The translations under genes were made by a program, and so were the position numbers. From positions 6,745,001-6,809,000 of the forward strand of contig NZ_CP159837.1 in the NCBI RefSeq assembly GCF_040564635.1: a stretch of DNA of 64,000 nt, in the 5' to 3' direction. Source of the stretch: Planktothricoides raciborskii GIHE-MW2 (GTDB lineage: Bacteria; Cyanobacteriota; Cyanobacteriia; Cyanobacteriales; Laspinemataceae). A model generated the notes under the pieces. That model did no database searches, was not told the DNA's origin, and saw only the letters and a program-made list of their open reading frames with translations. This document shows, piece after piece, positions 5,377 through 58,571 of this stretch (the first letter of the stretch is position 1; each line of letters opens with the position of its first letter).

Positions 5377-6636
5377 CTACTGAAGAGTACGAAGGTTTCT
5401 TTGGGCTGATTGAAAGTTCGGATCGATTTCTAAAGCTTGCTCAAACTGTGCCCTCGCTGCCGATAATTTACCTTGCAATTTCAGGGTTTCTCCCAAATCA
5501 TTGTAAGCTTGAGGTAAGTTGGGTCTGAGCAAAATTAGCTCTCGAAATGCCGCTTCTGCTTCCGCAAGATTGCCCTGTTTTCGCAGCAGCAAACCGAGAT
5601 TTCCATAAGCACCGGCATTATTGGGATTGATTTGGATGGCTTGACGATAAGCTGCGATCGCCTCGGTAATTTTTCCCTGTTCATTGTAAGCAATTCCTAA
5701 ATGATAATAGGCTAAACCTTCCTGGGGATCTAACTCAATTGCCCGTTGATAAGCGGCGATCGCCTCATTCAATTGCCCCTGATGTTTGAAAGTAATCCCC
5801 AACCCCACATAAGCTTGAGGTAAATCAGGATTCATCGCCAACATTTGCCGATAAGCGGCGATCGCTTCCGCAAAGTTCCCCTGGTGTCGTAAAGCATTGC
5901 CCAAATTATAATAAGCAGAGGTATGATTGGGGTCTAGTTTCAATCCTTCCTGGTAAGCCACAATTGCTTCTCTCATCCGATTGAGATTATAAAGGGCATT
6001 CCCCAAATTAAAATAAGCTGGGGCATTATTCGGTTCAAATTCTAAAGCTTTCTGGTAAGCAGCGATCGCCTCTTCAATTTTGGTTTGATTGTAAAGAGCA
6101 TTGCCCAGATTATAGTAAGCAGCAGCATAATTGGGCAGGCGTTCAATGGCTTGGCGATAAGTTGCGATCGCCTGATCTAATTCACCATTTTTTCTCAGGG
6201 CATTGCCTAAATTATTATAGGCTTGAGCATAATTTGCATCTTGGGAAATCGCTTGACGATAATTGGCGATCGCCTCATCCAACTCACCCAAATTATGCAG
6301 TGCATTGGCCAAATTATAATAACCTGGGGCATAATTAGGGTCTAATTTAATCGTTTCTCGATAAGCCGCGATCGCCTCATCTAATTTATTTTGGGCATAA
6401 AGACTATTGCCCAAATTATAATAAGCGATCGCATTATCTTGATCCAGGAAAATTGCTTTACGCCACAAAGACTCTGCCTGCTCATAATTACCTGCTTCTT
6501 GAGCCAACTTACCCGCTTCAAGCAAACTTTCCAGGGATAAAACTTCCCTGTAATTTTCAACGGATTGAGCCGTCACTATTTGGGGGGTTGCCCCCAAAGA
6601 TAGGGTTAATAACAGAATTAAACATCGACGAAACAT
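5377..6636 (-). CDS. Secreted TPR-repeat protein, about eleven repeats
   Basis: The 419-residue protein has a signal peptide (MFRRCLILLLTLSLGATPQI) and then a nearly uninterrupted array of 34-residue TPR units with the consensus AYYNLGNALxxxGxLDEAIA and xYxxAIxLDPNY. Such long solenoids bind other proteins or glycans-modifying enzymes; no fused enzyme is seen. HIP1 sites recur at the same place in most repeats because GCGATCGCC encodes part of the AIA motif. ATG 6636 is the only sensible start. Same orientation and signal type as the gene at 4465-5106. Confidence 0.85.
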   Translation of the reverse strand: MFRRCLILLLTLSLGATPQIVTAQSVENYREVLSLESLLEAGKLAQEAGNYEQAESLWRKAIFLDQDNAIAYYNLGNSLYAQNKLDEAIAAYRETIKLDPNYAPGYYNLANALHNLGELDEAIANYRQAISQDANYAQAYNNLGNALRKNGELDQAIATYRQAIERLPNYAAAYYNLGNALYNQTKIEEAIAAYQKALEFEPNNAPAYFNLGNALYNLNRMREAIVAYQEGLKLDPNHTSAYYNLGNALRHQGNFAEAIAAYRQMLAMNPDLPQAYVGLGITFKHQGQLNEAIAAYQRAIELDPQEGLAYYHLGIAYNEQGKITEAIAAYRQAIQINPNNAGAYGNLGLLLRKQGNLAEAEAAFRELILLRPNLPQAYNDLGETLKLQGKLSAARAQFEQALEIDPNFQSAQRNLRTLQ

Positions 6637-40845: not shown

Positions 40846-41439
40846 ATTAACTATGTGATTGTTGATTGTTGCCTGTTGTTGTTGATTGTTGATTGTTGAT
40901 TGTTGATTGTTGATTGTTGATTGGGGAAAGGGGAACAGTTATCAGGAGCCACTGCGATCTTGGGGTCTCCCCAAGTCTAGCAAGTGGCGTGGAACGGGGA
41001 AAGTGAAAAGTGAAAAGTGAAAAGTGAAAAGTGAAAAGTGAAAAGTGAAACTAAATATCACTATTCACTATTAACTATTCACTATTCACTATTCACTCTC
41101 TCCTGAAGCTCCTCTGCTTCCCTGTTCCCTCTGTTCCCTGTTCCCTGTTCCCTGTTCCCTGTTGCCTGTTGTTGTTGATTGTTGATTGTTGATTGTTTAT
41201 TTCTCCGCAGCCTGCCCCCGCGAAAGCGGGGTTTTTTGTCCGCTCATCTCTAACCAATAACAAATAACCAATAACTAACAACAAACCAAAAATAAGACAG
41301 AACAAAGGACAAAGGACAAAGGACAAAGGACAAAGAACAAAGGACAAAGAACAACCAATTGGCCATTAAGTATGGTAATCTCTAAATCATTCCAGAAAAT
41401 CGAGCAAAAACGCCACAATATTTGAGAAAGGGGGCATTC
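40846..41439. repeat. Spacer built almost wholly of simple repeats
   Basis: In order: GATTGTT units (40858-40922), GTGAAAA units (about 41000-41050), CTATTCA units (about 41060-41098), CTGTTCC units (about 41121-41166), GATTGTT units again (41174-41200), and GGACAAA units (about 41300-41350). Several of these 7-nt units also occur at 26.6 kb. No gene is supported. Confidence 0.75.
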
Positions 41440-43161
41440 ATGGACGGTATAGCAATACTTAGAGATCAACAAGCTGACTTTATTAAAAGACTCAGTTCAA
41501 ATGCAGCGGTCTTGCATCAAATGAAAGATTATAAACTCACCGGCTATCATAGTGAGTTAATGGTTATTTCGGGTAGTTTGTTAAATCGATTACAAAAATT
41601 TTATACTCGACAAAAAGCAGAAAACTTACCCGATAATTACCAAAAATATATCGAAAAAGATGATTTTAAGCAAAAGCTGAAAAGTAGTTTTAGTAAATTA
41701 ATTGTTAAACAGTATTTAGATGATTTGATCCAAATTATTGATAAAAATAACAATTTATATTCTGAATATCCGGGAGATTTTTGTCTAACCTATCGACCTA
41801 ATTATCCAATTATTGTCAAGGGAAATTTTGGCAATAGAAACACTGTATCATGGTCATTAATTCCCGATGAAGTTGAACGAGATGGCGTGGTAGTGTTTGT
41901 GTTAATTGAAGAAGATTTCGAGCGAGATAAGTATCAATATAATTTGATTTTAGCCGGTTTTTTGCCGACGGAAATGCTCGAAGGTGCTCCGCACCCCGGC
42001 GCAGGCCGCGATCGCACTCAGCCAATAATTAGAGTAACAATTCAGGATCTTCTTTATGGCGGTGGGTTGAAAAGTTATTTAACATCTTATGTAACATCTG
42101 GTGCAGGGGTGATGCCGAAAGTACCTTCCCTCAGCCTACCAAATGACCTAGAGAGTTCAACTTCACCAACCAAATGGATTTGCACCCAAACCCTGAGTGA
42201 TGAAAAATCTCTATTGTGTCTGGCAATTACCGGCGAAGGTGCTCCGCACTGCGGCATAGGCCGCGATCGCCTAGGGTCGGGGCAGTCACCAAAACTCGCT
42301 TGTGCGGGGTTAGATCAATGGTTGAAAATTTGGGATTTATCCACGGGACAAGTGGAACAAACGATTTCGGAACACCGTTATCCGGTTTTTTCCTTAGATT
42401 TTAGTCCTGACGGCCAAACCTTAGCCGTTGCTTCAATGCACGAAACCATTGAACTGTGGGATTTAGGCAATGGCGATCGCCCTCCCACTTTGCAAAATAT
42501 TCTCGAAGGTCATTCTCTGGGTGTATTTTCTCTGCATTTCACCCCTGATGGAGAAATGCTGATTAGTCGGTCTTTGGAAGAAAGCATCAAAATTTGGGAT
42601 CTGAAAACCGGCGAACTAATTCAAACCCTGGATAGCCATGCGGGTCCAGTATGGTCGGAAGCCATTAGTCCTGATGGCAAACTGTTGGCCACGGGAAATT
42701 TAGATGAAAGTATTAAAATCTGGCATCTAGAAAAGAATTCCGGAAAATTAAACGTTTCTGAAGTTTGCGTTCTTAATGGTCATTCAGATGTGGTGCGTTG
42801 TCTGGCTTTTAGTCCCAATGGAAAGTTCTTAGCCAGTGGCAGTGCCGATCACACAATTAATCTTTGGCGTCTGGATCAATCCCCCGAAAATCCTTCTATC
42901 TTTGCCACCCTGAAAGGTCATACGAATATCGTTTATTGTTTAGCTTTTAGTCCTGATGGCAAATTTCTCGCCAGTGGCAGTGAGGATCGCACGATTAATA
43001 TTTGGCGTCTGGGCGAACGCACTAACAATTATGTCACCGCTTTAGAAGCCACTTTAACCGAACATTCTGGATTAGTTTGGGGCTTACAATTTACCCCAAA
43101 TGGCAAAACTCTGGTCAGTGGTTCTCAGGACGGAACGATTAAAATTTGGGATCAGTGTTAA
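41440..43161 (+). CDS. WD40-repeat protein with an unknown N-terminal domain
   Basis: The 573-residue protein has an N-terminal domain of about 230 residues (LRDQQADFIKRLSSNAAVLH, GDFCLTYRPNYPIIVKGNFG, YQYNLILAGFLPTEM) that I do not recognise, followed by about seven WD40 repeats forming a propeller (LDFSPDGQTLAVASMHETIE, LAFSPDGKFLASGSEDRTIN, and a final VSGSQDGTIKIWDQC). AAAGGGGG lies before ATG 41440. WD40 propellers act as scaffolds. Two in-frame 36-bp DNA repeats interrupt the protein at residues about 181-192 and 266-277 (EGAPHPGAGRDR and EGAPHCGIGRDR). Confidence 0.8.
   Translation: MDGIAILRDQQADFIKRLSSNAAVLHQMKDYKLTGYHSELMVISGSLLNRLQKFYTRQKAENLPDNYQKYIEKDDFKQKLKSSFSKLIVKQYLDDLIQIIDKNNNLYSEYPGDFCLTYRPNYPIIVKGNFGNRNTVSWSLIPDEVERDGVVVFVLIEEDFERDKYQYNLILAGFLPTEMLEGAPHPGAGRDRTQPIIRVTIQDLLYGGGLKSYLTSYVTSGAGVMPKVPSLSLPNDLESSTSPTKWICTQTLSDEKSLLCLAITGEGAPHCGIGRDRLGSGQSPKLACAGLDQWLKIWDLSTGQVEQTISEHRYPVFSLDFSPDGQTLAVASMHETIELWDLGNGDRPPTLQNILEGHSLGVFSLHFTPDGEMLISRSLEESIKIWDLKTGELIQTLDSHAGPVWSEAISPDGKLLATGNLDESIKIWHLEKNSGKLNVSEVCVLNGHSDVVRCLAFSPNGKFLASGSADHTINLWRLDQSPENPSIFATLKGHTNIVYCLAFSPDGKFLASGSEDRTINIWRLGERTNNYVTALEATLTEHSGLVWGLQFTPNGKTLVSGSQDGTIKIWDQC
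41980..42015 (+). repeat. 36-bp in-frame repeat inside the WD40 gene, copy 1
   Basis: GAAGGTGCTCCGCACC and CGGCGCAGGCCGCGATCGC together form a GC-rich unit with an internal inverted element. Length 36 is a multiple of three, and codon phase is kept, giving EGAPHPGAGRDR. A second copy lies at 42235. Confidence 0.8.
42235..42270 (+). repeat. 36-bp in-frame repeat inside the WD40 gene, copy 2
   Basis: Differs from copy 1 at four positions (for example CACTGCGGCATAGG in place of CACCCCGGCGCAGG) and gives EGAPHCGIGRDR in the same phase, at the start of the first WD40 repeat. Confidence 0.8.
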
Positions 43162-43206: not shown

Positions 43207-43470
43207 ATGTCTGAGCGCGAAACTGGCCGGATGGCATTAGAAAAACCACTAAATCCTTGGCATTATAAACCGTGGTGGTGTCAGCCCTGGTCGATTTTAT
43301 TAACCGGCATTACCATTATTGCAGGCAGTTGGTTACTATTTCATCGCGTCTGGGTGAGTGCGATCGTGGCAGTGCCCATATTAATTTGGATGGGTTTTTT
43401 CCTCCTGATTTGGCCAAAACTGATGATTCAAAGTGGCATTTTGGAGCAGTATAAAGCCAATTTAAAATAA
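43207..43470 (+). CDS. Small membrane protein (DUF6737-like)
   Basis: Eighty-seven residues: a conserved NPWHYKPWWCQPWSILLTG before two membrane helices (ILLTGITIIAGSWLLF, AIVAVPILIWMGFFLLIW) and a short tail. This resembles a small cyanobacterial family (DUF6737). The first ten residues (SERETGRMALE) are encoded by DNA resembling the dispersed repeat GTGCCGGATGGCATTA, so the N-terminus may be recent. It starts 45 bp after the WD40 stop. Confidence 0.65.
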   Translation: MSERETGRMALEKPLNPWHYKPWWCQPWSILLTGITIIAGSWLLFHRVWVSAIVAVPILIWMGFFLLIWPKLMIQSGILEQYKANLK

Positions 43471-43564
43471 TTATTTATTGGTTGTTAGTTGTTGGTTGTT
43501 AGTTGTTGGTTATTTGTTATTGGTTATTTCTTTGGTTGTTTTACTCAGAATAACGAATAATCAA

Positions 43565-43682
43565 TAGACAATTCTGGCAAAATTCTTAAAAGCCGATCGC
43601 GGTTGATCCGCCATATTGCATCCGCAACGCTTTTCGCGAACGGTTGGGGGGATCGAGATATTTATTTTGCCAGAATTGTCTA
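43565..43682. mobile_element. MITE-like element with 19-bp perfect terminal inverted repeats
   Basis: TAGACAATTCTGGCAAAAT at 43565-43583 and its exact complement at 43664-43682 bound a 118-bp element with TA at both outer ends. The core contains a GTTGGGGGGATCGAGAT segment also seen in the related copy at 47526-47610. There is no coding capacity. The size, perfect ends and family of copies fit a miniature inverted-repeat transposable element. Confidence 0.7.
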
Positions 43683-43769
43683 ATAACTAAGAACAACAAA
43701 TAACCACATCCAGAAAACTTATTTTCGCCTGGAAAGTCTTTAATAGAAGAAGAATAAAAGGTGACGGTT

Positions 43770-45473
43770 ATGAAACCTATTTTTTGGCATTCTTTAATAA
43801 TTGGGCTGAGTTTACTCCTGTCGCCGACTTTGCCTCCCTGGTTGGCTTCTGCTGCGGAGAACGTTACGGAAACAACCTCTAATGTAGAAGTTGAGGCAGA
43901 AGTTGAGGCAGAAGTTGAGGCTAATCCGCAGAATCAGGATTCATCGGTGACAGAGGAAAAACAGGAGGAGAGTGAATCCATTGACGAAACGTGCCAGATG
44001 GTGACAACAGAGGATGTTTCCCAGGAAGCTGAGACAGAAGTTGAAGATGCAGAAGACGCGGCAGCAAAAGCGGCAGCCGTTAGCGAAGCGTGCCGGATGG
44101 CATTACAACGACGGCAGGTTTTGATTGCGGCAGATAAATTATATTTGGCGGGAGATTATGCAGGGGCTAAGGCATTGTATCAACAAGTGAAACCGCCTTT
44201 TTCTGGAAATACTTTGTCCGATGAGTTTGCCGATCGCCCTGAACCGATTTATGACCCGGAACTTTTAGCCCCTGCGGGACAAGTGTATTGGCGGGAAGGC
44301 AATGCGGGAATTGAGCAAAAATTAGAAACGCGAATTTTTATCCCCTTGGAGTTATTGGTAGAAAAATATCCCGAATTTATTCCCGGTCATTTACTATTAG
44401 CCCAGGCTTTGCAGGACTATGACAAATTGCCACAAGCGGTGGAAGTGTTGAATCGTGCCACTACTCTTTATCCCCAACAAACGGATCTGTTGCGATCGCA
44501 AATTGATGTTTTGGTGAAAAGCAGACAGTGGTTAGAAGCGTCGATCGCCGCCCGTCAATTTGCGTTACTTAACCCAGACCACCCAGAGGCGAAAGAATTC
44601 GCAATTTTGGCCGAAGAAAATTATGATAAGTTCCGGTCTTATCTGAAAAAAATGATTACCGGAAATGCGATCGCTAATGTGATTACTGGGGCGGCTACTG
44701 TCGCCCTCACCGGCAATCCTTTGGGTGCTCTTTCGGCGGTAGAAACTTTGATGCTATTAGCCCAAGGTGAATCCGGTCTGGGCGATCGCATCGCTAACAA
44801 TGCGATCGAAAATCTGGAAATGGTCGAAGATGAAGAAATCGTTGCCTATATTAATGAACTAGGCCAAAAACTCGCCAAAGTATCGGGGCGCGATGATTTT
44901 GAGTATGAATTTCATGTGGTCTTAGATCCCAACTTAAACGCCTTTGCCCTGCCCGGTGGCAAAGTCTTTGTCAATGCTGGGGCGATTTACCACACCGAGT
45001 CAGAAGCCGAACTCGCCGGTTTACTCACCCATGAATTAGCCCACGCGATTTTATCCCACGGATTTCAAATGGTGACTCATGGCAACTTGGTGGAAAGTAT
45101 GACCCGCTTTGTACCCTTTGGCGGCACCATTGGCAATTTATTAGTCTTAGACTATAGCCGAGATATGGAACAGCAGGCGGATCTTTTGGGGACTCGAATG
45201 CTGGCAGCAGCAGACTATGCGGCGGATGGCTTACGCAACCTGATGGTGACATTAAATGAGCAATATGACGACAACAGCCCGGTTTTGAAAGCCTTATCCT
45301 CTCACCCGCCGACGAAAGAACGAATTGCTTATTTGGAAAGTTTGATTACTCGCGGTGGCTATAATCGTTATGCTTACGAGGGAGTAGAACGCCATCAACA
45401 AATCCGCCAGCGGGTTGCCAAATTACTCAAAGAAAAAAAGACCGATGATGAGGATATCCTCGAAATTGAATAA
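43770..45473 (+). CDS. M48-family metalloprotease, secreted, with N-terminal TPR-like region
   Basis: The 567-residue protein starts with a signal peptide (PIFWHSLIIGLSLLLSPTLPPW), has an acidic low-complexity region (VEVEAEVEAEVEANP from a small tandem DNA repeat), a helical TPR-like part (LYLAGDYAGAKALYQQVKPP, PGHLLLAQALQDYDKLPQAV), and a zinc protease domain with HELAH at 421-425 and a downstream EQQADLLGTRMLAAADY, in which the Glu is the third ligand. M48 proteases of this kind act in envelope quality control. AAAGGTG is positioned for ATG 43770. A copy of the repeat GCGAAGCGTGCCGGATGGCATTA encodes SEACRMAL at residues about 108-115. Confidence 0.88.
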   Translation: MKPIFWHSLIIGLSLLLSPTLPPWLASAAENVTETTSNVEVEAEVEAEVEANPQNQDSSVTEEKQEESESIDETCQMVTTEDVSQEAETEVEDAEDAAAKAAAVSEACRMALQRRQVLIAADKLYLAGDYAGAKALYQQVKPPFSGNTLSDEFADRPEPIYDPELLAPAGQVYWREGNAGIEQKLETRIFIPLELLVEKYPEFIPGHLLLAQALQDYDKLPQAVEVLNRATTLYPQQTDLLRSQIDVLVKSRQWLEASIAARQFALLNPDHPEAKEFAILAEENYDKFRSYLKKMITGNAIANVITGAATVALTGNPLGALSAVETLMLLAQGESGLGDRIANNAIENLEMVEDEEIVAYINELGQKLAKVSGRDDFEYEFHVVLDPNLNAFALPGGKVFVNAGAIYHTESEAELAGLLTHELAHAILSHGFQMVTHGNLVESMTRFVPFGGTIGNLLVLDYSRDMEQQADLLGTRMLAAADYAADGLRNLMVTLNEQYDDNSPVLKALSSHPPTKERIAYLESLITRGGYNRYAYEGVERHQQIRQRVAKLLKEKKTDDEDILEIE

Positions 45474-45717
45474 TTTTGGTTATTTGTTGTTTGTTGTTGG
45501 TTGTTTGTTGATGGTTGTTGGTTGTTTGTTGATGGTTGTTAGTGGTTGTTAGTTATTGGTTGTTAGTTACTGGTTGTTAGTTATTGATTATTCAATCCGG
45601 AATCCCCCAAACAACTTGCCAACAACAAACCAACAACAACCAAAGAATCCCTACCCCACAACCAACAAACAACAAAAGAATCCCTACCCAACAACCAACA
45701 AACAACAAACAACAAAA
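45474..45717. repeat. Inverted arrays of GGTTGTT units
   Basis: GGTTGTTxGTTGTT-type units (45476-45580) are followed by AACAAC/CAACAAAC units (about 45615-45715), so the whole can form a long imperfect hairpin. No gene. Confidence 0.7.
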
Positions 45718-56960: not shown

Positions 56961-58571
56961 ATGAATTTTTCCCATCGATTCCCACCAGCTATCTTTGGCG
57001 CCGCAATGGTCAGCAGCACAATCGTAATGATGCAATTCGCGACACCCGTAGCCTTAGCCGCAGACGTGCAGCAAATTGCCAGAGAAATTACGGTGCGGAT
57101 TGATGGGCCTGGGGCCGGGGGTTCGGGATTTATTGTTAAACGAGAAGGTAATACCTATACAGTTGCGACAAACTGGCACGTTGTAGATCGCGAAGGGCAA
57201 TATACAGTTAAAACCGAGGATGGTCGAGAATATTCGGTTAGCCAAATCCAACAACTACCAGGGGCAGATTTGGCGGTGATGTATTTTACCAGTCCCCAGA
57301 GTTATCGAGTGGCAGAGTTGGGGAATTCAGATAATGTCAGTTTGACTCAGCCGATATATGTGTCAGGTTGGATGAATCCTTTGTCTGATGCAATTCGCCA
57401 ACCAGCTTATAGTTTGATTCAGGGACAAATTACGGCAATCCAGTCACAAAATGATGGCGGTTATACTTTGGTTTATAACACCACTGGTAACTATAAAGGC
57501 ATGAGTGGTGGCCCGGTATTGAATCAGGATGGTAAAGTCATCGGGGTGAATGGACAAGCGATATCGGATCCACGGATTGGCGTGGTGGGTTTATATCTGG
57601 GAATTCCGATTAATACTTTTGAACGGCTGCAAGCTAGGGTGTCTCGACCAAACCTTCAGCCAAGAGAAACGACTCAACCATCTAATACCCAAAGCGATCG
57701 GGCATTCTTAGAGCAGGGTAATGAACAGTATAATCGACAAGACTATGAAAGTGCTATTGCAAGTTACAACCAAGCGATTAGGATTAATCCTGAATTAGCC
57801 CTTGCTTACAACAACCGAGGTGCTGCCTACGCCGACCAAGGAAAATTAGACCAGGCGATCGCGGATTATAACCAAGCGATTAGGATTAATCCTGAAGATG
57901 CCGATGCTTACAACAACCGAGGTGCTGCCTACGCCGACCAAGGAAAATTAGACCAGGCGATCGCGGATTTTAACCAAGCGATTAGGATTAATCCTAATTA
58001 TGCCGATGCTTATCATAATCGAAGTGTTGCCTACGAAAAACAAGGAAAATTAGACCAGGCGATCGCGGATTATAACCAAGCGATTAGGATTAATCCTGAA
58101 GATGCCGATGCTTACAACAACCGAGGTCTTGCCTACTACAGGCAAGGAAAATTAGACCGGGCGATCGCGGATTTTAACGAAGCGATTAGGATTAATTCTG
58201 AATATGCCGAAGCTTACAACAACCGAGGTCTTGCCTACTACAGGCAAGGAAAATTACCTGAATATGCCTCAGCTTACTACAACCGAGGTCTTGCCTACTC
58301 CGACCAAGGAAAATTAGACCAGGCGATCGCGGATTACAACCAAGCGATTAGGATTAATCCTGAATTAGCCCTTGCTTACAACAACCGAGGTCTTGCCTAC
58401 TCCGACCAAGGAAAATTAGACCAGGCGATCGCGGATTTTAACCAAGCGATTAGGATTAATCCTGAATATGCCGATGCTTATCGTAATCGAGGTTTTGCCT
58501 ACTACAACCAAGGAAATAACCGTCAAGCCCAGGAGAACTTCCGCAAAGCTTCTGAACTATATCAACGGTAA
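56961..58571 (+). CDS. Secreted trypsin-like serine protease fused to TPR repeats
   Basis: The 536-residue protein has a signal peptide (IFGAAMVSSTIVMMQFATPV), an S1-type protease domain to about residue 215 with His73 (VATNWHVVDREG), Asp103 (LPGADLAVMYF) and Ser182 (YKGMSGGPVL), and, from about residue 246, nine TPR units encoded by nearly identical 102-nt DNA repeats (AYNNRGLAYSDQGKLDQAIA...YNQAIRINPE). One unit is truncated: QGKLPEYASAYYNRG lacks about 18 residues, yet the frame holds. The TPR part probably presents substrates or partners. The near identity of the DNA repeats means copy number is prone to change. Confidence 0.9.
   Translation: MNFSHRFPPAIFGAAMVSSTIVMMQFATPVALAADVQQIAREITVRIDGPGAGGSGFIVKREGNTYTVATNWHVVDREGQYTVKTEDGREYSVSQIQQLPGADLAVMYFTSPQSYRVAELGNSDNVSLTQPIYVSGWMNPLSDAIRQPAYSLIQGQITAIQSQNDGGYTLVYNTTGNYKGMSGGPVLNQDGKVIGVNGQAISDPRIGVVGLYLGIPINTFERLQARVSRPNLQPRETTQPSNTQSDRAFLEQGNEQYNRQDYESAIASYNQAIRINPELALAYNNRGAAYADQGKLDQAIADYNQAIRINPEDADAYNNRGAAYADQGKLDQAIADFNQAIRINPNYADAYHNRSVAYEKQGKLDQAIADYNQAIRINPEDADAYNNRGLAYYRQGKLDRAIADFNEAIRINSEYAEAYNNRGLAYYRQGKLPEYASAYYNRGLAYSDQGKLDQAIADYNQAIRINPELALAYNNRGLAYSDQGKLDQAIADFNQAIRINPEYADAYRNRGFAYYNQGNNRQAQENFRKASELYQR

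Follow-up and report, generated by a model that had tools for sequence, protein, structure and literature searches.

Two 30-bp segments in a WD40 gene of Planktothricoides raciborskii GIHE-MW2 as probable insertions of an SDR5-like mobile repeat at HIP1 sites

Two segments of a WD40 gene in the window (the whole 64-kb stretch of DNA that was analysed) were found to be best explained by two separate insertion events of a very small, SDR5-type mobile repeat (probability about 0.9), and the identity of the segments as a mobile SDR5-like insertion is regarded as hardly in doubt. They were gained without loss of target bases at a HIP1-like target, and the module to which they belong is dispersed on both strands of the genome and follows a pairing rule. 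The feature of the WD40 gene is real and its explanation is largely known, the longer variant of the repeat and the clean set of filled and empty sites being new to us.

The repeated segments of the WD40 gene and their empty counterparts

The host protein was found to contain a C-terminal WD40 propeller (Pfam WD40, E 3e-70), and its N-terminal region gave no Pfam match among the 25 families listed. As the initial annotation had described, the gene contained two 36-nt stretches, GAAGGTGCTCCGCACCCCGGCGCAGGCCGCGATCGC (41980-42015, residues 181-192) and GAAGGTGCTCCGCACTGCGGCATAGGCCGCGATCGC (42235-42270, residues 266-277), which share orientation and frame, stand 255 bp from each other and differ in four bases. 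A pattern for these stretches, with up to 3 mismatches allowed, matched at 2 places in the window and at none in 100 dinucleotide-preserving shuffles. Both stretches were found to be closed by the HIP1 sequence GCGATCGC (42008-42015 and 42263-42270). The single-sequence structure model of the protein had a mean pLDDT of 50.7, with residues 1-271 below 50, a value of about 25 near residue 181 at the first insert and values of 35-43 at the second insert, which lies just N-terminal of the WD40 part. The features were placed as follows.

41440..43161, + strand: host gene, open reading frame of 573 aa with its ATG at 41440
41979..41981, + strand: left half of target 1, CGA; the empty site in the orthologue L016 reads ATGCTCGATCGCACTC
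41982..42011, + strand: inserted element copy 1, 30 bp, AGGTGC...GCCGCGA, corresponding to a 30-bp gap against the relative's orthologue L016
41983..41995, + strand: hairpin 1 of copy 1, GGTGC-TCC-GCACC, from predicted folding and compensatory changes in the family
41996..42009, + strand: hairpin 2 of copy 1, CCGGC-GCAG-GCCGC, predicted fold, longer than in the 24-bp form
42012..42015, + strand: right half of target 1, TCGC, which with the insert end re-forms HIP1 at 42008-42015
42234..42236, + strand: left half of target 2, CGA of GGCGATCGC, from comparison with L016
42237..42266, + strand: inserted element copy 2, 30 bp, the removal of which gives a length equal to L016
42238..42250, + strand: hairpin 1 of copy 2, GGTGC-TCC-GCACT, predicted fold, with G-U as the last pair
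42251..42264, + strand: hairpin 2 of copy 2, GCGGC-ATAG-GCCGC, predicted fold
42267..42270, + strand: right half of target 2, TCGC, with HIP1 re-formed at 42263-42270

The ends of copy 1 are uncertain by 3 nt because CGA stands on both sides. L016, the orthologue in the congener G001 (hereafter the relative, and the sole congener in the orthologue search), was 81% identical and was found to be shorter by 30 bp at each of the two places, with CGATCGC left behind. The second empty site in this orthologue reads ACCGGCGATCGC, and after removal of 30 bp the two genes were of equal length there, reading GGCGATCGC, with 24 nt up to a shared CAG; the border of copy 2 was set by eye, the aligner's gap having fallen elsewhere. 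A near full-length homologue of another family, L039 (37% identity, residues 69-572), was also found to be without both segments, with a loose alignment at the second place. The residues in question were thus absent from both the same-genus orthologue and the distant homologue, which bears out the earlier view that the segments are foreign to their surroundings; distant orthologues carrying the same residues at both sites would have spoken against it.

Since the empty sites in the relative still read CTCGATCGC and GGCGATCGC, the DR codons, which lie within HIP1, predate the insertion. The repeat had first been taken for a unit of 12 codons belonging to the gene, whereas the real unit was found to be 30 bp or 10 codons and a member of a genome-wide DNA family. 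The HIP1 sites stand where the initial annotation had placed them, at the close of each copy, but they were found to be the pre-existing target and not the end of the repeat. With both the relative and the distant homologue empty, two gains of 10 codons are indicated, each into CGATCGC, and HIP1 is, judged from these alignments, the target of the 30-bp element and was in place beforehand. The added peptides were EGAPHPGAGR in copy 1 and EGAPHCGIGR in copy 2, with the common form EGAPHxGxGR. Planktothricoides sp. SR001 was found to contain a 573-residue WD40 orthologue with a rounded identity of 100%.

Other repeats were also found near the host gene. The WD40 gene and its neighbours are flanked by arrays of 7-bp tandem repeats (AAAGTGA, AACAAAG, TTGGTTG and others) at 41000-41354, 43470-43528 and 45476-45592, which resemble cyanobacterial heptamer repeats. 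Between two genes, at 43558-43689, there were inverted arms of 26 nt that are 88% complementary and stand 80 nt apart; their end, TTTTGCCAGAATTGTCTA, also adjoins the 30-bp copy found at 4341259 in the genome and would seem to belong to a larger, transposon-like repeat. In the gene that begins at 43761, a 12-bp unit (EVEA repeats) stands in three perfect copies at 43886-43921.

A dispersed family with filled and empty sites

A search of the 7.2-Mb genome for the repeat, which had been proposed along with the first description, found the 30-bp pattern at 7 places on both strands with up to 3 mismatches and at 0 for the reversed control; five of these copies lie outside the WD40 gene, and the seven were used to build a covariance model of the element. 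A looser pattern gave 39 matches in the window's genome, not all of them members (eight were left out as seemingly unrelated or as overlapping another match), 29 in the relative and 0 for the reversed pattern in both. The family was found to occupy 38 recognised places in this genome on both strands, seven of 30 bp and most of the others of 24 bp; this number was obtained from 43 candidate rows by removal of five without the family form by eye (1364146, 5176406, 4693108, 2363289 and 6759055), with the tandem array at 6630052 counted as one place. The common insert is 24 bp, CGA-AAGTGCTCCGCACCGCTNNCGCGA-TCGC and variants, and the module was near-identical between copies whose flanks are unrelated. 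SR001 contained all seven 30-bp copies in the same flanks as in the window's genome, which, with the WD40 orthologue, would place the window in that species or in one very close to it.

Nested or tandem copies were present at 6630052-6630156 in this genome, in L066 and L074 of the relative and in L247 of SR001. In L247 (1501-1555), two different 24-bp units stand head to tail in one HIP1 site; a 1,055-bp query from this locus found no orthologous stretch in the window's genome. At L126, L137, L146 and L151 (genome positions 1306052, 4343283, 6625747 and 4198918), a relative of the element of 25-29 bp was found within a larger intergenic repeat with the flanks CCAACC...CCTTAAAAC and CGAACGGCTTT, which is also present in the relative. 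The window contained 78 HIP1 sites in its 64 kb against 0.58 expected. At 5654-6375 and 57855-58432 the HIP1 sites were mostly 102 bp apart, as if one belonged to each 34-codon tandem unit, and there they may have been copied along with the repeats.

An exact pattern, in which the inner varying pair of hairpin 1 was fixed, gave 76 matches in one scan across named genomes, 43 of them cyanobacterial (several genomes more than once) and 33 other. The cyanobacterial matches came from Planktothricoides, the S07 MAG, Okeania, Hydrocoleum, Tychonema, Argonema, Roseofilum, Stenomitos, Pseudanabaena, Anabaena, Cyanomargarita and others, and N. punctiforme was absent from the matches of this single exact-pattern scan. 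The left arm contained CGA in 42 of the 43 cyanobacterial matches against 4 of the 33 others, and the outer varying pair of hairpin 1 was present in 39 of 43 against 10 of 33, so that the non-cyanobacterial matches look like chance. The model R1, applied to 59 genomes (the own genome and 58 relatives) at E <= 0.01, gave a match in 15 of the 59, and a score of more than 50 bits was reached only by matches in the own genome (7) and in its one congener there (1). Among the genomes searched, the strong 30-bp form was found only in the window's genome, in SR001 and at one place in G001. A plasmid search with a typed 32-nt consensus returned 35 records at E 0.2 or worse, with no cyanobacterium among the matches listed.

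The flanks of 18 further copies, joined after removal of the insert, were sought in the relative. Fifteen of the 18 sites were placed, 14 of them empty with no extra base at the junction and one filled (394964), a proportion that is not an overall rate, the 18 copies having been chosen partly as not already seen to be shared; the remaining three (4341259, 5741344 and 5811966) gave no match there. Ten of the 14 empty sites were gap-free within 25 nt of the junction, and gaps or poor flanks near it were present at the other four (1374, 1057537, 2706886 and 6841586). Five other loci were filled in both genomes, namely 2023046 (with two units in the relative), 4069497, 4343283, 4785808 and 2394694. 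The reciprocal case was also found, the 30-bp copy L046 of the relative facing the empty site CCCGAACGC in the window's genome. In SR001, the locus L266 contained a 24-bp copy that the window's genome lacks in a stretch (L273) of 91% identity, perhaps a paralogue. Filled and empty pairs, which speak for recent mobility as in SDR5, were thus found in both directions between two relatives and once against a near strain.

Among the 16 empty sites (the 14 with joined flanks and the two of the WD40 gene), ten read CGA/TCG or CGA/ACG, the slash marking the junction. The six that did not were TGA/TCC (1395971), TGA/ACG (3812874), CAA/TCG (1428939 and 2706886), CAA/ACG (2065276) and 1057537, at which the relative shows a gap of 9 nt. 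The insertion point was always at the centre of the site, in perfect and imperfect HIP1 alike, and the bases shared at the junctions numbered 1-5 nt, differing from site to site.

These comparisons bear on two other accounts of the WD40 segments. By the first, the segments are ancestral and the relative lost them by precise deletion between short shared flanking bases such as GCGA; the microhomology around the copies would allow such slippage, and the pair of L266 and L273 can be read in this way, but near-identical modules amid unrelated flanks tell against it, and loss in the relative was rejected on the distant homologue L039, which also lacks both segments, and on the empty cases found in both directions. 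We regard deletion as very improbable. By the second, which is a shade less probable still, one copy arose from the other within the gene by a local event such as unequal exchange. Their distance of 255 bp, shared orientation and frame and only 4 differences in 36 bases would suit this, but the likeness ends at the borders of the module and five other 30-bp copies lie elsewhere; two separate HIP1 targets, both empty in the relative, led to the rejection of a plain duplication. Within the reading of two separate insertions, one copy may have reached the other site of the WD40 gene by a short-range hop.

Pairing, reading frames and the base after the junction

Pairing was counted over 50 different 24-bp copies, which occupy 62 places in this genus and in other cyanobacteria, with kinship among the copies ignored and the 33 non-cyanobacterial loci left out; a GCGA-W-like right end was required, which biases that end and not hairpin 1. 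One inner variable pair of hairpin 1 was paired in 48 of the 50 copies (T-A 28, G-C 17, A-T 3), where shuffling gave 23.9 on average, and the other in 49 of 50 (T-A 45, A-T 3, C-G 1), where it gave 42.5; at neither pair did any of 10,000 partner shuffles reach the observed pairing. A third candidate pair (positions 4/16) was paired in 6 of 50 and indicated nothing. Hairpin 2 (CGC-NNNN-GCG) was nearly invariant and hence gives little information on pairing; in the 30-bp form the second stem is 5 bp. An unusual folding stability was considered and rejected, four single copies being ordinary against shuffles (z -1.16 to 0.65). As these single-copy free energies are ordinary, it is the covariation that carries the structure. 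The pairing of hairpin 1 is kept, as the covarying bases indicate, by the mechanism or by selection on movement, and the hairpin is not especially stable.

Twenty-three of the 38 copies, two of them in the WD40 gene of the window, were found in ORFs of at least 150 aa and 15 outside. The 23 copies used five of the six frames (7, 6, 5, 4 and 1 copies) on either strand, which argues that the peptide is not the selected unit. A selected peptide motif EGAPHxGxGRDR, for instance a linker or binding loop that spread among proteins, is accordingly the least probable of the accounts weighed. The same frame does recur in a pentapeptide-repeat protein at 736238 and in L046, and it is the commonest (7 of 23), but 15 of the 38 copies lie outside long ORFs and the varying bases preserve nucleic-acid pairs and not a peptide; the use of five frames led to its rejection.

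A Pfam match was found in all 10 host ORFs scanned, out of 22. In UvrA the insert falls within the match to the DNA-binding domain (333-442), at about residue 346 of the fetched fragment, and in cytochrome c oxidase subunit II it lies near residue 137, between two domain matches; the other scanned hosts included a CHAT protein, a GAF protein and the pentapeptide-repeat protein. The insert length was divisible by three in all 23 copies in long ORFs and in 9 of the 14 others (p = 0.005), a comparison that omitted the tandem array at 6630052 and in which the 25-nt length of three copies was taken by eye. Divisibility by three as a selected property of genes was set aside, four of the five exceptions lying in one larger intergenic repeat; counted as one event they leave 9 of 11, which is unconvincing.

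When filled sites were compared with empty ones, the base just past the junction was found to be T in one and A in the other in 6 of 18 cases. As a control, not matched, 78 uninterrupted CGAWCG-type sites of the relative were taken from aligned regions of the same loci, and at most 1 of them showed such a switch. The single control exception was a misaligned CGTTCG site, and the Fisher p was 1e-4 with this site counted and 2e-5 without. The switches were placed as follows.

736238, 1395971, 2399911, 2706886 and 2065276 (against the relative) and L266 (SR001): T/A switch loci

Two of the six are weaker, 2706886 having a gap 3 nt away and L266 lying in the 91% region that is perhaps a paralogue. 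The direction from empty to filled was mixed, four T to A and two A to T. At L128 (1395971-1396007), two of the three post-junction bases differ, the filled site reading ACG against TCC in the empty site, which is possibly a trace of donor sequence. In this small sample, the switches suggest that copying continues past the junction.

Relation to known small repeats and candidate routes of movement

SDR families of 21-27 nt are reportedly present in Nostoc punctiforme, and they are said to show compensatory changes, nesting, association with larger repeats and a suspected RNA intermediate. To our knowledge, their mechanism of movement was left open when they were described. The present family likewise contains nested copies and ties to larger repeats, and it shares with SDR5 the lack of coding capacity and the hairpins with compensatory change. 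The local 24-nt form fits the reported size range, whereas the two copies in the window measure 30 nt and have a second stem of 5 bp. SDR5 is further said to lie exclusively in HIP1, a wording that the present copies do not literally match, as they are also found in CGAACG and other imperfect sites. PMC4390886, which cites Elhai et al. 2008 (Genome Res 18:1484), states that SDR5 of Nostoc inserts precisely within HIP1 between nucleotides 3 and 4, and the junction of the present family at the HIP1 centre fits this position within the junction ambiguity. Judged by target, structure and mobility, the 24-bp copies are very probably SDR5-type, and the 30-bp copies are called a variant of SDR5, SDR5-like rather than plain SDR5. 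Among the matches listed for the open-licence PMC literature, no title on a 30-bp HIP1-inserted repeat was found, and PMC4390886 was the only one on SDR5 with Nostoc or HIP1.

Rickettsia palindromic elements are described in the review PMC10969869 as palindromic repeats of about 150 bp inserted in frame in unrelated protein genes. The present element is likewise inserted in frame in unrelated protein genes; unlike those elements, with their conserved encoded peptide, it is 24-30 bp long, targeted to HIP1 and read in five frames. According to PMC3116915 and PMC3733652, REPs are extragenic and bear GTAG or CGTC tags, and a REPIN is a doublet of REPs. An element of the REPIN type, which a RAYT (Y1 transposase) would move as single-stranded DNA, shares with the present family its tiny size, hairpins, dispersed copies and lack of genes or coding capacity, features that PMC3116915 gives for REPs, but no GTAG or CGTC end tag was seen by inspection in the consensus or the aligned copies, and 23 of the 38 copies lie in long ORFs; such an element is very unlikely here, about as unlikely as deletion in the relative. 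A MITE was rejected, no terminal inverted repeats being seen by inspection and only 1-5 nt, varying by site, being shared at the junctions.

The module is too small for a gene, and so something in the cell must move it. As RNA or as single-stranded DNA in the two-hairpin shape, it could enter the HIP1 centre at a break or nick, by joining or by copying, with help from annealing of its terminal GCGA to the target. Copying may run at least 1 base past the junction, and this would account for the frequent T/A switch of the following base. The lengths found in long ORFs were all divisible by three and give an addition of 8 or 10 residues, which the protein would tolerate. This single-stranded, template-copied route, through RNA or DNA, is put forward tentatively, at somewhat less than even odds. 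A less likely, though by no means negligible, route would be template switching between HIP1 sites at a double-strand break or replication fork, that is, a conversion driven by microhomology that needs neither RNA nor a dedicated enzyme. Dense HIP1 sites provide GCGA/TCGC homology on both sides for it, and the post-junction switch (6 of 18, with at most 1 of 78 in the control) resembles co-conversion, but taken alone it leaves the compensatory pairing of hairpin 1 unexplained. More speculative again is the proposal that the 30-bp form is a currently active gene-free unit, template-copied between HIP1 sites, which carries donor bases past the junction and adds frame-neutral inserts of 8 or 10 residues to working proteins (UvrA, cytochrome oxidase subunit II, GAF, CHAT and WD40).

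For the insertion reading itself, a size of 24-30 bp places the repeat near the lower limit of what counts as a mobile element. The related genome pair, with many clean filled and empty sites in recognisable genes, a possible junction signature and a measurable pairing rule, makes the mechanism testable. Through the family, HIP1 sites give rise to small protein insertions in frame, as in UvrA, where the insert falls within the match to the DNA-binding domain, and if the 30-bp unit is indeed active, HIP1 sites would be docking points for small protein changes.
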